DNA of 64,000 nt from a virus: positions 1-64,000 of the IMG/VR virus record IMGVR_UViG_3300017963_000029; one strand, 5' to 3'. The translations under genes and the position numbers were made by a program. Position 1 is the stretch's first letter. Each line of letters starts with the position of its first letter. Positions 41,792-46,451 of the stretch are shown here, piece after piece. The notes beneath the pieces were generated by a model. It was not told the origin of the DNA, did not search any database, and was given only the letters and a program-made list of their open reading frames with translations.

Positions 41792-42907
41792 ATGCGCGAC
41801 GTAGACCGAAATGCCCGGTTGGTGCTGACTTACGGTGGGATGTCCTGGCTGGCGGGAAACGTGAATTCTTCGGTTAGTCGGAAGGATCTGTTTCTCGTAA
41901 TGCGCAAAGACGTAGGAAAAACCGCTTTCAAAAAGGCGCTTAAAAACACCAGATGGCAGAAGGAGTGCGTGGCGCGAATGGTGGAGGCCGGTCTTCTTCG
42001 GGAGATTAAAAAAGGCAGTCAGGTGTTCTACAAGGTACACAACGAGCAGCTTCTGAAAGATGCTGTTGCCGATAGTGACAATAACGGGGGGATGGCTCTC
42101 GCCAGGTATCTGTTTCCTCACGAGGTTGGCGTGGATGAGGAGGACATCCCCGACGAGCTTCGGGAGATGTTGCAGGAAGAAGGGGTATCACAAGGCGTTC
42201 TCGTCCCAGAAAGCCGCGAAGAAGCTCCGAAGTCGTTGGCAGAGAAGATGCGAGCGGCGAGTGCAAAAGGCGACTCGTTATTTGATGGGATAAAGGAAGT
42301 AGACGTGAGGGGTCCTTCTTTTACCGGAGAGGAACTGACGGAACCCACGATTCAGAAAGGCATAGCCAAAAACGAAGAATTAATAGATATGCTCCGGCGT
42401 TTTCAAGGGTACGTCGAACACATAAGCGGTACGTTCGATACCATCAACAGCAATCTGACTCTCGCAGAGCAGCGGTTCAGCAGTGTAGATACTAGGTTGA
42501 AAGCACTGGGCAAGACCCTGGACCGGCATGTCAGCGTCACTGAAAACGCGGTGAAAGAGGAGGCAGAGAACCGTCGTAAGGACGCGACAGAGCTTCTGGA
42601 GATGTTCACCATTATCGGGGAGAACCAGGTACGGGGGACGAAGCTCGTGGGAGTATTGAACGAGAACGTCAAGAAGCTGACAGAGGGAACGTCGAAGGAG
42701 AGCGAGGTGACGGCCAAAGTTGTGCAGGCCATCCACGCAGAACTGAAGTCGGTGGCCGACTCGTACAGGGCTCTGGTCGAATCACAAACAGGCGAGGGGC
42801 GTATGAAGGAAGCGATGGATCTCATCAAACGCGGCCTCCGGGATTTTGAGGAAGGACAGTCGCTGCTCCTCGAGCAGCAGGCAGAACAGGGCGGTGATGG
42901 CGAGTGA
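41792..42907 (+). CDS. Winged-helix plus coiled-coil protein
   Basis: 371 aa. Residues 30-95 fit a winged-helix DNA-binding fold (W-Q-K-E-C-V-A-R-M-V-E-A-G-L-L-R-E-I-K-K-G and a beta wing). A linker contains A-E-K-M-R-A-A-S and S-L-F-D-G-I-K-E-V-D, shared with the nuclease tail and DUF669-like protein. The C-terminal 190 residues are a long coiled coil. Possibly a replication or segregation adaptor. Confidence 0.72.
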   Translation: MRDVDRNARLVLTYGGMSWLAGNVNSSVSRKDLFLVMRKDVGKTAFKKALKNTRWQKECVARMVEAGLLREIKKGSQVFYKVHNEQLLKDAVADSDNNGGMALARYLFPHEVGVDEEDIPDELREMLQEEGVSQGVLVPESREEAPKSLAEKMRAASAKGDSLFDGIKEVDVRGPSFTGEELTEPTIQKGIAKNEELIDMLRRFQGYVEHISGTFDTINSNLTLAEQRFSSVDTRLKALGKTLDRHVSVTENAVKEEAENRRKDATELLEMFTIIGENQVRGTKLVGVLNENVKKLTEGTSKESEVTAKVVQAIHAELKSVADSYRALVESQTGEGRMKEAMDLIKRGLRDFEEGQSLLLEQQAEQGGDGE

Positions 42908-43811
42908 AATAAGACTACGGCGGTTGATGGACCGGTACCGCGAGCTCGTGGAGAGAAACGCGCCCAGCATAGATCTGGCGAGGCTCGAGAAGGAGATCTG
43001 GGCCATCGTCAAGGTGAATCGCGACGTGGCGCTTCGGCGCCGGATATGGTTCGCAGAGGTGTTTGGAGGGAACACCGTCTATTACGAGAACCGGTGGCAC
43101 ATCTTCAGAAAGAAGTGGGCCCGCCCGCTTTTCGACGAGGTGGACAGCAAGAGGATGACCTGGAAGAGCGCCATCACCGCCTATCGGCGCTCCAACTTCC
43201 TCGCGCGCCGGCACGGCATGAAACCCGGCAAGGTTCTCAAGCGCGTGATGGAGCAGTACGACGGGACCACCAAATCCGTCGAGAATGCTGTTGTCGACGG
43301 CGAGGTGGTGCTTGATGTCAGCGACGGGCGCGAGTCGCTCAATCTGTTGGCCAAGGAGTTACGGGCCAAGGTAAAGCATGCCGCGGAGGTGTACGTGGCA
43401 GCGGCGCTCGACAAGATGGGCGTCGAGGACGACCAGCATCAGAAGATAATAGAGGACTTCGTTATCAGCATGGACCAGGTGGTCAACGAGTTACTGATGA
43501 CCATCCGCGTCTGCAGGAAGAACGCCAAGGAAGAGGGGCTCGCGAAGATAGGCCTTCGGTCGTTCGATTGGGCGTGCGAGGTCCTGGGTATTCAGGCTTC
43601 TTTTGGTGAGGAGGTGGATCTCAAGCTCGTCGGTAAAGTGGTTCGCCGGCGAGCGAGAGATCTGCACCCTGACCGTAATAAAACCCCGCAAGCGAAACAG
43701 GAGTATGACAACGTAAACCGTGCCCACGAGATACTGCTGGCGTACTCCCGGTTTCGCAGGAAAGGCAATGGAAATGGTATCACGCAGAAAGAAAATACGC
43801 AGTCTCCTTGA
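42897..43811 (+). CDS. Protein with C-terminal J-domain
   Basis: 304 aa from the ATG at 42897. The C-terminal 60 residues match a J-domain: helix II R-R-R-A-R-D, then H-P-D-R-N at about 257, then V-N-R-A-H-E-I-L. The larger N-terminal part is helical and basic with no recognised fold. J-domains recruit Hsp70/DnaK, so this may bring the host chaperone to the replication complex, as DnaJ does in lambda replication. Confidence 0.82.
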   Translation: MASEIRLRRLMDRYRELVERNAPSIDLARLEKEIWAIVKVNRDVALRRRIWFAEVFGGNTVYYENRWHIFRKKWARPLFDEVDSKRMTWKSAITAYRRSNFLARRHGMKPGKVLKRVMEQYDGTTKSVENAVVDGEVVLDVSDGRESLNLLAKELRAKVKHAAEVYVAAALDKMGVEDDQHQKIIEDFVISMDQVVNELLMTIRVCRKNAKEEGLAKIGLRSFDWACEVLGIQASFGEEVDLKLVGKVVRRRARDLHPDRNKTPQAKQEYDNVNRAHEILLAYSRFRRKGNGNGITQKENTQSP

Positions 43812-44310
43812 TTACAAACCCGACCCGAAAGTGAAGGACGAGGGCATGCAGGCGGCGATGTTCATGGTGTGGGCGGCGGAGGAGCTTCCCTACCGCTACA
43901 TCCCGATGCCCATCATCGTCCGGATGGCCCGGGGCATGAATCGCACGCCCCGGCACGACAGCCCGGAGGTGGAGCTGTTCAAGAACAACCGCTTCCAGCG
44001 GGTCAAGCGCATCCTCCTCGAGCAGTATCGGCGCGAGAATGACTGGGGCCCCGGGATGGGATATCGGGCCACGGTCGACAGCGCGGACACTCTCAGGACG
44101 GCTTGGAAGAAGAGGCTCCGGGATATCCTGGCCGCCTTCAAAAGGGCCAAGGCCACCGGAGAGACCATCAACGAGAATCAGTTGACCAAGAAGGACCGGG
44201 AGTACTTCCTGTCTACCCGTGGGGCGGTCAAGAAGATGGACGGGCCCTCGTTGGGCGGGAAGTTGTTGCCGCGTGACGCCGAAGAGGATGGTAAGAAAAA
44301 GACGGAGTGA
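43774..44310 (+). CDS. Basic helical hypothetical protein, 178 aa
   Basis: The ATG at 43774 lies 8 nt after GGAAAGG; the ATG two codons earlier is too close to it. Arg/Lys-rich helices throughout, ending in KKKTE. It overlaps the J-domain gene by 38 nt. No family recognised. May bind nucleic acid. Confidence 0.66.
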   Translation: MVSRRKKIRSLLDYKPDPKVKDEGMQAAMFMVWAAEELPYRYIPMPIIVRMARGMNRTPRHDSPEVELFKNNRFQRVKRILLEQYRRENDWGPGMGYRATVDSADTLRTAWKKRLRDILAAFKRAKATGETINENQLTKKDREYFLSTRGAVKKMDGPSLGGKLLPRDAEEDGKKKTE

Positions 44311-46451
44311 TGCTCACCATAGGCTCTTTATTCTCTGGTATTGGAGGGCTCGAGTTGGGGCTGGAATTGTCCGGTCTCGGCCCCGTGCTCTTTCAAGCGG
44401 AGAAGGAGGAGTACTGCCTGGGCATCCTCGAAAAACACTGGCCAGAAGTGAAGAGGTTCGACGATGTCAGAAAAGTCACCGCAGACACCGTGCCACGAGT
44501 CGACGTACTGTGCGGAGGATTTCCTTGTCAGGATATATCAGCAGCCGGCAAGGGTGAGGGCCTTAGCGGTTCTCGAAGCGGCCTCTGGTACGAGTTCGCT
44601 CGCGTCGTTAGTGAGCTCTGTCCAGAGTGGGTTGTCGTCGAAAACGTTGCAAGCGCAGCAAACCGTTGGGTCGATGCCGTCCGAAGAGACCTGGAAGGGA
44701 AAGGTTATGCAACGCTACCGATCCCACTTGCAGCAGCTGATGTTGGATCTTCTCATCTTCGTAAAAGAATCTTCATCGTTGGGCACCGCGCGCTGGACAA
44801 CCCCGAAGAGCACGGCGAGCGGCCCGGACTACGCGCGATCCGGGAGGAAACGGAGCGGTGGAGACGACTTGGTGACTCAGGTGGCGAAGTGGCCGACCCC
44901 GACGGCATCCCTGTATGGGACGAGCCAGAACGAGGGACAGGTACCCCATCAACGTCCGAGTGCAGGGACGCCGAGTTTATGGACGATAGCTCGCCGGTGG
45001 CCGACACCCGACGCGAACATGGGCAGCGGAGGGAGGATGACGGATCCGGAGAAAGTAACGCCGACGGGAAGAGATTTGGAGACAGGCAGAAAAAGGCAGA
45101 TAACGTTAGGCGATGCGGTTCGCCGCCATCGTCGGTGGCCCACGCCGACGGCGGGGGATTCGAAGTCGAGCGGCAGCAGGAACTTACCGGGGTCGAAAGC
45201 CCACCCGGGGGTGTCGTTGACGGACATGGCGCTTCACGGGAACAGCTCGACACCTCGCAGATGGCCGACGCCCAAACACCGGGATTTCAAGAGCGCAGCT
45301 GGTCCAGCAGGGATGAAACGAGACAATCCGGATTTGAATGTGGTGGCAGCGAAATGGCCGACGCCGACATCGTCGGAAGCGGGCAATACATCGAGGGGAG
45401 GGGACCGGAAGGACGAGCTTCTTTTGGGTGGCCTTTCGAGTGGCCACCACCGCCCGGAGACATGCAGTCATGGGGGCAAGTGCCGCCCGACTCTCAGCCC
45501 TCAGTTTGTGCTGTGGCTCATGGGATTCCCCAGAGGGTGGCTAGACTGAAGGCTTTGGGCAATGCAGTCGTACCACAATGCGCCGAAGTAGTTGGCTACA
45601 TAATACAAGAACTATATACCCACGAAATACAGGAGATAGAAATGAAGTTGTTCAAGTTGAGTAAGACCGACAAGAAGGAGAAGTGCGCGGCCAACCGTTG
45701 CAAAGACGATCACACGGGAGAGGTTCCCGGCGATTTGTGGGGAAGAGAAACGGCCAAGCTTTGCGACCGGCACTTCAACGAGGCAGTCACCTTCGCAGAG
45801 CAGAACCCCGACTACAAGCCGCCGACCCCGGGAACTCCGGGCACCTCGTTGACGGTGGTGGACCAGGCACTGAACGACGAGCTTGAGGCCCAGTACAAGG
45901 AAGCCGAGGACATGCTCAAGGAGTTGGATGGCTTCGAGGTGGTAACGCAGCAGGACCTGGAGAACATAGCCGAGGTCCTCGTGATGGTGAAAGGCCGACG
46001 CAACTGGCTCGAGACGCGCGAGAAGGAGATAACCGTCCCCATCCACACCTCGTTGAAGAAGGTGCGAGAGCTATTTGAGCCGTCCAAGACGTTCTGGGCC
46101 AATGCCGAGGTCATCCTGAAGCAGAAGATAGCCGCAGCCAAGCTCCGCGAGGCCTGCAACACCGCCCAGGCGTTGCAGGAAGCGGCAGATGCCGCCGGCA
46201 TCGGGGACAGCACCACGGTGGCGCATGCCACCTCGCGCATCACCACGGTCGGGGACGTGCCGGGCATCAGTACCCAGGACCGGTGGAACTACAAGGTGGT
46301 GGACGCTTCGAAGGTGCCACGGAAGTACTTGATGGTCGACGACGCCAAGCTCCGGGCCCACTGCGCGATGTTCAAGGGCGACGACAAGCCCACCGCCATC
46401 GAGGGCATTGATTTTTTACCCGATGTCCGGGTGACGGCGAGGTCGAAATGA
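44310..46451 (+). CDS. DNA cytosine-5 methyltransferase read in frame into downstream gene
   Basis: 713-codon open frame. Residues 1-443 form a C5-methyltransferase: motif I L-F-S-G-I-G-G-L-E, catalytic C73 in G-F-P-C-Q-D-I-S, E-N-V at 111-113, R-K-R-I-F-I-V-G at 151-158, and closing R-L-K-A-L-G-N-A-V-V-P-Q. Between them lies a long low-complexity region with repeated V-A-D-P-D/M-A-D-A elements typical of phage members. No stop separates it from the 269-aa protein that starts at 45642, so either a fusion is made or the downstream start is used as well. Residues 52-413 are dual-coding with the 44464-45549 frame. Confidence 0.85.
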   Translation: MLTIGSLFSGIGGLELGLELSGLGPVLFQAEKEEYCLGILEKHWPEVKRFDDVRKVTADTVPRVDVLCGGFPCQDISAAGKGEGLSGSRSGLWYEFARVVSELCPEWVVVENVASAANRWVDAVRRDLEGKGYATLPIPLAAADVGSSHLRKRIFIVGHRALDNPEEHGERPGLRAIREETERWRRLGDSGGEVADPDGIPVWDEPERGTGTPSTSECRDAEFMDDSSPVADTRREHGQRREDDGSGESNADGKRFGDRQKKADNVRRCGSPPSSVAHADGGGFEVERQQELTGVESPPGGVVDGHGASREQLDTSQMADAQTPGFQERSWSSRDETRQSGFECGGSEMADADIVGSGQYIEGRGPEGRASFGWPFEWPPPPGDMQSWGQVPPDSQPSVCAVAHGIPQRVARLKALGNAVVPQCAEVVGYIIQELYTHEIQEIEMKLFKLSKTDKKEKCAANRCKDDHTGEVPGDLWGRETAKLCDRHFNEAVTFAEQNPDYKPPTPGTPGTSLTVVDQALNDELEAQYKEAEDMLKELDGFEVVTQQDLENIAEVLVMVKGRRNWLETREKEITVPIHTSLKKVRELFEPSKTFWANAEVILKQKIAAAKLREACNTAQALQEAADAAGIGDSTTVAHATSRITTVGDVPGISTQDRWNYKVVDASKVPRKYLMVDDAKLRAHCAMFKGDDKPTAIEGIDFLPDVRVTARSK
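44464..45549 (+). CDS. WPTP-repeat protein encoded entirely within the methyltransferase gene
   Basis: 361 aa in the +2 frame relative to the methyltransferase, same strand, full overlap. The opening H-E-S-T-Y-C-A-E-D-F-L-V-R, S-G-T-S-S-L and S-K-T segments, six W-P-T-P repeats, and the end S-P-Q-F-V-L-W-L-M-G-F-P-R-G-W are features I recognise from phage and bacterial proteins encoded beside cytosine methyltransferases. W-P-T-P here is the shifted reading of V-A-D-P in the other frame. Both frames show family-typical sequence, so both are probably expressed. Function unknown. Confidence 0.72.
   Translation: MSEKSPQTPCHESTYCAEDFLVRIYQQPARVRALAVLEAASGTSSLASLVSSVQSGLSSKTLQAQQTVGSMPSEETWKGKVMQRYRSHLQQLMLDLLIFVKESSSLGTARWTTPKSTASGPDYARSGRKRSGGDDLVTQVAKWPTPTASLYGTSQNEGQVPHQRPSAGTPSLWTIARRWPTPDANMGSGGRMTDPEKVTPTGRDLETGRKRQITLGDAVRRHRRWPTPTAGDSKSSGSRNLPGSKAHPGVSLTDMALHGNSSTPRRWPTPKHRDFKSAAGPAGMKRDNPDLNVVAAKWPTPTSSEAGNTSRGGDRKDELLLGGLSSGHHRPETCSHGGKCRPTLSPQFVLWLMGFPRGWLD
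45642..46451 (+). CDS. Phage recombination-associated-type protein (internal start)
   Basis: 269 aa from an ATG with its own AGGAGATAGAA site, in frame with the methyltransferase. N-terminal Cys/His cluster (KCAANRCKDDHT ... LCDRHF), then a coiled coil around about 110-185 (R-N-W-L-E-T-R-E-K-E-I-T-V-P-I) and a domain ending V-D-A-S-K-V-P-R-K-Y-L-M-V-D-D-A-K-L-R-A. I associate that ending with phage proteins encoded next to recombination genes. Exact role unknown. Confidence 0.75.
   Translation: MKLFKLSKTDKKEKCAANRCKDDHTGEVPGDLWGRETAKLCDRHFNEAVTFAEQNPDYKPPTPGTPGTSLTVVDQALNDELEAQYKEAEDMLKELDGFEVVTQQDLENIAEVLVMVKGRRNWLETREKEITVPIHTSLKKVRELFEPSKTFWANAEVILKQKIAAAKLREACNTAQALQEAADAAGIGDSTTVAHATSRITTVGDVPGISTQDRWNYKVVDASKVPRKYLMVDDAKLRAHCAMFKGDDKPTAIEGIDFLPDVRVTARSK

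Follow-up and report, generated by a model that had tools for sequence, protein, structure and literature searches.

How can one segment of viral DNA hold two long reading frames on the same strand, and what might their products have to do with each other? Long, fully nested same-strand overlaps have been thought rare in dsDNA phages. The question is raised by a window of 64,000 nucleotides (positions 1 to 64,000 of the virus record IMGVR_UViG_3300017963_000029, which has 82,687 bases), in which a gene for a C5-cytosine methyltransferase (C5-MTase) chain, alpha, encloses a second gene, beta, in the +1 frame. The pair is very probably a two-polypeptide C5-cytosine DNA methyltransferase, with both chains encoded by one DNA segment in two frames. 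The features discussed are as follows.

44310..45641, + strand: alpha, C5-MTase chain with motifs I-VIII and X (PF00145, phrog_363; start TGATG)
44310..44789, + strand: alpha motifs I-VIII, SAM-binding and catalytic lobe, with FPCQD, ENV and RKRIFIVG (phmmer, fused-family profile)
44450..44456, + strand: Shine-Dalgarno-like GAAGAGG, 7 nt before the beta ATG (duplex energy -7.2 vs. a background median of -3.7)
44464..45549, + strand: beta, WPTP-repeat protein in the +1 frame, nested in alpha (phrog_1008, permutation test, fused-family profile)
44890..45366, + strand: WPTP repeats of beta, proposed target-recognition region (sequence; codon-phase rates in relatives)
45493..45531, + strand: motif IX in the beta frame (LSPQFVLWLMGFP), beta residues 344-356 (scores against ordinary motif IX)
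45537..45581, + strand: motif X in the alpha frame (VARLKALGNAVVPQC; alignment to motif X of fused relatives, score weak)

The alpha frame is open from 44307 on in the ORF list of the window, and its start is likely the ATG at 44310, which overlaps an upstream stop codon (TGATG). Beta opens with an ATG, has 361 amino acids and lies wholly within alpha; the coding overlap in the window is 1083 nt. No alpha stop follows motif X. The frame runs to 46451 (45579-46451, + strand) and takes in a downstream ORF that has its own ATG at 45642 and a weak match to the exonuclease family phrog_10477. Judged by its sequence, this continuation may be a fusion or a missing stop; a search for relatives of the downstream ORF, made to judge the missing stop, found none. 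The upstream neighbour (42846-43811, + strand) matches the J-domain family close to its C terminus (PF00226, 1.9e-6), and genes for DNA polymerase, helicase and exonuclease lie in the same region.

The overlap and chance expectation

Could beta be a long chance ORF, the untranslated shadow of a GC-rich alpha code? The N-terminal part of beta overlaps conserved alpha motifs and would seem conserved anyway. Permutation tests nevertheless make this reading exceedingly unlikely. With the alpha protein held fixed, a +1 open run of at least 365 amino acids arose in 2 of 5000 synonymous-codon permutations, and none arose in 5000 permutations of the alpha codon order; the +2 frame of alpha was ordinary in the same tests. 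A chance ORF is also contradicted by the codon-phase rates, which reveal constraint on the beta frame between motifs VIII and IX, and by the loss of synonymous freedom in alpha at the beta start (both described below).

The openness of alpha has been evaluated in the same way. With the beta protein fixed, the alpha frame of the window stayed open from motif VIII to motif IX in 0 of 400 synonymous shuffles. Among 76 dual loci, drawn from 83 pairs in total, alpha would be open by chance in 3.6 given the beta codons, and it was open in all 76. The initial annotation had proposed genuine dual coding on one strand, and this is borne out by the presence of both ORFs, the permutation tests and the recurrence of the arrangement in relatives.

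Division of the methyltransferase motifs

Is alpha a complete enzyme? The initial annotation had credited it with all C5-MTase motifs. Motifs I-VIII, including PCQ and ENV, are present, and profile searches matched alpha to phrog_363 (3.1e-69) and to PF00145 (5.4e-38, residues 4-166 only); phmmer aligned M.HhaI to it (9.5e-20, query 6-160). Motif IX is missing from alpha in an ungapped comparison with the motif IX of two ordinary phage C5-MTases: the best score (17-18) falls at the PCQ region, which is not a motif IX. It sits in beta instead. In the same scoring, LSPQFVLWLMGFP of beta reached 27-29 against ordinary motif IX such as LTPRECWRLQGFP, the next best score being 10, and the C-terminal end of beta, LSPQFVLWLMGFPRGW, is motif IX. 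Further along the alpha frame, RLKALGNAVVPQ aligns to motif X of fused relatives with a weak score.

Beta matched phrog_1008, a phage family of 'DNA methyltransferases', at 1.4e-20, and this family had matches in 0 of 14 control genomes. Nothing was found above the cut-off in Pfam or NCBIfam, a profile search returned no PDB relative, and tblastn of beta in phages gave nine weak matches. Read in the alpha frame, the WPTP repeat segment becomes V-A-D-P and M-A-D-A.

The relation between the two chains is clarified by enzymes in which they are joined. In the mycobacteriophage protein Madiba gp71 and about twenty relatives, one chain in one frame carries motifs I-VIII, LPTP repeats, PEWMMGWPAGW and, last, IIGNGV or a sequence close to it. 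A profile built from the fused enzymes matched alpha of the window over motifs I-VIII with 116 bits and weakly over motif X, and it matched beta over the repeats and the final box with 46 bits in all. Since the profile divides in this way between alpha (I-VIII, X) and beta (repeats, IX), beta would be the DNA-recognition lobe of the same enzyme, and on this evidence alpha and beta appear to be complementary parts of it. The initial annotation had seen beta as a separate protein of a kind found beside methyltransferases; that view gives way to one in which beta supplies motif IX and the target-recognition region.

An AlphaFold model of beta alone was poor and of low confidence, so a fused relative (L192) was modeled instead. 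Its catalytic lobe and its IX-X end were predicted confidently, with M.HhaI as the best PDB match (3.5e-14); its repeat region, where recognition would take place, had low confidence.

A second alternative is that alpha is a complete methyltransferase, with V-A-D-P as its recognition domain, and that beta is a separate protein overprinted on it and serving some other function. It is often alpha that is annotated as the methyltransferase, and beta by itself is without PDB or Pfam relatives and is poorly modeled. However, the parts that alpha lacks, motif IX among them, are exactly those found in beta and joined to the catalytic lobe in the fused relatives, and the alpha residues between motifs VIII and IX are not conserved. 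We regard this alternative as highly improbable.

Several observations concern the repeats themselves. The number of PTP repeats in the fused relatives L172-L197 ranges from one to five, which suggests gain and loss of recognition modules. Locus L062 (1475-2884 and 1539-2183), the fused member of the phage and viral set, is a mosaic: some of its LPTP repeats lie in the +1 frame (ORF 1539-2183), and those beyond them lie in the alpha frame together with motifs IX and X. Judged from this layout, it is perhaps an intermediate between nested and fused forms. An ordinary phage C5-MTase (L204:412-1491) carries GLAPTLTTNKG / GIAPTIRAYQGGG repeats in its recognition region, and hhalign sets these against the LPTP repeats; the WPTP unit may be one version of a recognition module that is already known.

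Occurrence and selection in relatives

Single-sequence scans of IMG/VR with alpha or beta gave no matches, and an alignment query was needed. The beta alignment identified at least 80 loci in IMG/VR, and a GTDB scan identified at least 80 in bacterial genomes. A first set, composed of the IMG/VR loci, the window and phage records, held 83 loci with a recognizable pair. Among the matches listed, 76 of these 83 phage and viral loci were fully dual, with alpha open past motif IX and beta in the +1 frame, and alpha ended earlier in the other seven. Motif X was in beta in four of the seven (L006, L037, L053, L090) and in another frame in one (L017); it was not located in two. The bacterial-genome loci among the matches listed comprised 72 dual, 7 split and 1 apparently decayed of 80, and by their record titles they came from Acidobacteria, Proteobacteria, Firmicutes, Chloroflexi, Planctomycetes, Spirochaetes and other phyla. 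No frame relation other than +1 occurred among the matches listed in either set. Overlaps in the first set ran from 450 to 1293 nt, with a median of 890 nt. Because beta was the means of collecting the loci, these frequencies describe loci that have a beta. The overlap is not peculiar to the present phage and is the usual state of the class among the loci sampled in this way. Fused and split forms were also found when homologs of the second frame were sought outside full overlaps.

These distributions bear on whether the pair is a decayed single-frame enzyme, a pseudogene whose recognition lobe was put out of frame by two frameshift mutations. Fused forms exist, and relative to them the recognition region is in the other frame. 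Yet this +1 state is met again and again in many phyla, and both of its frames are open and under constraint; decay is hardly credible as an explanation.

Cultured examples include phages of Paenibacillus, Acinetobacter, Pseudomonas, Klebsiella, Escherichia and Synechococcus. Both genes are annotated in Paenibacillus phage Tadhana, and in the record of a Xanthomonas phage two listed methyltransferase genes overlap. In other public records (L007:1976-3142; L008:2520-3200; L200:1201-1929) the beta frame alone is annotated and alpha omitted; the names given in beta-only annotations are 'cytosine-specific methyltransferase' (Alfacinha3) and hypothetical protein (Rctr197k, phPA-G). One viral contig (L056:133-1952) has two alpha/beta pairs in tandem.

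Which of the two frames is conserved, and where? Codon-phase rates were taken from nucleotide alignments, which replaced a beta-guided alignment to exclude bias toward beta. In the stretch from motif VIII to motif IX, the differences were 0.441, 0.302 and 0.300 for the first, second and third positions of alpha codons in 18 pairs, which are partly non-independent as some have a locus in common. A second data set of 24 pairs, in which each locus was used once although ancestry is still common, gave 0.376, 0.242 and 0.219. Alpha position 1 is beta position 3, and its being the fastest here indicates that beta is the protein conserved between VIII and IX; V-A-D-P would therefore be the out-of-frame shadow of WPTP. 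Upstream, in motifs I-VIII, alpha position 3 is the fastest, which indicates that alpha is conserved there. The earlier suggestion that the second gene shapes the V-A-D-P middle of the enzyme agrees with the rates between VIII and IX.

Synonymous sites in alpha were compared at late-beta loci, defined by a beta that opens over 100 nt into alpha; here, too, each locus was used once and ancestry is still common. Alpha synonymous differences were 0.526 before beta and 0.324 within it in the first set (8 of 8 pairs), and 0.635 and 0.309 in the genome set (11 of 11 pairs). Loci at which beta opens at the alpha start showed no drop (0.378 and 0.389; 0.289 and 0.321), and the contrast between late and early beta was significant (p=1.5e-4 and 1.4e-5). 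A gene-start effect on synonymous rates was considered and is ruled out, as the early-beta loci show no drop. The nearest relatives found are distant (about 20-45% identity), so selection has been measured in relatives and not in the phage's own lineage. In those relatives purifying selection, which the initial annotation had proposed to check, acts on both frames, and constraint in one frame only was not obtained.

The start sites are informative about how beta would be made. The distance between the alpha start and the beta ATG is 4 nt at 17 loci (ATGAATGAG or a similar sequence), and at nine an alpha GTG lies 2 nt downstream of the beta ATG (ATGTGG). Starts this close give the impression of two frames served by a single ribosome-binding site. 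Where the beta ATG is inside alpha, Shine-Dalgarno complementarity had a median of -6.45 vs. a background of -3.7 kcal/mol (p=7e-6). The start sites and these signals favor separate initiation of beta over frameshifting. A programmed +1 frameshift after motif VIII would join I-VIII, the repeats and IX in a single chain, and there would be no beta with a start of its own. In favor of this, a chain of that composition functions as a single protein in the fused relatives, and no offset other than +1 occurs among the loci listed. Against a frameshift, beta has conserved starts with Shine-Dalgarno signals or nested start codons, synonymous constraint on alpha begins at the beta start, far upstream of any shift site, and alpha remains open to motif X. 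Such a mechanism is very unlikely.

The proposed enzyme, known systems and meaning

The preferred reading is thus a methyltransferase of two separately initiated chains. Alpha would provide the SAM-binding and catalytic lobe (motifs I-VIII) plus the closing helix (motif X). Beta would have a separate start, an ATG within the alpha gene, and be read in the +1 frame; it would provide the small lobe, which comprises motif IX and the target-recognition region of WPTP repeats. To reach motif X, ribosomes on the alpha frame would cross the recognition region out of frame, as V-A-D-P, and this stretch of alpha is probably an unconstrained linker. The two chains would associate into one active enzyme, which most likely methylates phage DNA and so allows escape from host restriction. 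We infer beta translation, chain assembly, activity, target sequence and biological role; protection from restriction is suggested by analogy with the family. More broadly, the loci would represent a nested +1 class of phage and prophage C5-MTases in many phyla, in which a specificity lobe with varying numbers of WPTP modules evolves in the inner frame and the outer frame is kept open between VIII and IX only to reach motif X. We consider such a class likely, with less confidence than the two-chain enzyme itself.

How does the pair compare with known methyltransferases? In M.EcoHK31I the small gene also lies inside the large gene, in another frame. The large chain of that enzyme (YGGCCR) has motifs I-VIII and X and the small chain motif IX, and the predicted recognition domain was placed in the large chain (PMC3404938). 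In the window pair, too, I-VIII and X share a chain and IX is on the other, but the recognition region appears to lie in beta, as indicated by codon-phase rates and the WPTP repeats. By analogy with this motif division as described, the pair is a widespread variant of the M.EcoHK31I kind that is seldom annotated as a pair. M.AquI (CYCGRG) is a natural two-chain C5-MTase split into I-VIII and IX-X (PMC3404938). Loci L006, L037, L053 and L090, where alpha ends after VIII and motif X is in beta, are divided likewise; the window differs in keeping motif X in alpha and in having one gene wholly nested in the other. The phrog_1008 family and the fused mycobacteriophage methylases such as Madiba gp71 share the repeats, motif IX and the catalytic lobe with the window, but they have all of these in a single chain read in a single frame. 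A 2025 study of an actinobacteriophage described an out-of-frame HNH endonuclease within the methylase gene of phage ShiLan (PMC11855218). There too a second-frame protein is hidden in a methylase gene, in phages of the fused family's group, but that protein is a mobile homing element that was inserted into the gene, whereas the second frame of the window encodes part of the enzyme itself. No earlier description of a phage-wide nested arrangement was found in the literature searched, by which its absence is not proven.

Overlaps are penalised by annotators under a rule stated in PMC6070908. The present overlap of about 0.45-1.3 kb occurs in many phyla, and selection is measurable on both of its frames. 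A nested pair explains the odd V-A-D repeats of alpha enzymes and suggests a reason why annotations often lack one of the two genes or name it wrongly. If the broad nested class is true, many public annotations give only one of two subunits. An alpha annotated or cloned alone would probably be an inactive enzyme. The nested pair offers a system in which to study how a single gene is shared by two frames and how one form, be it fused, split or nested, changes into another.
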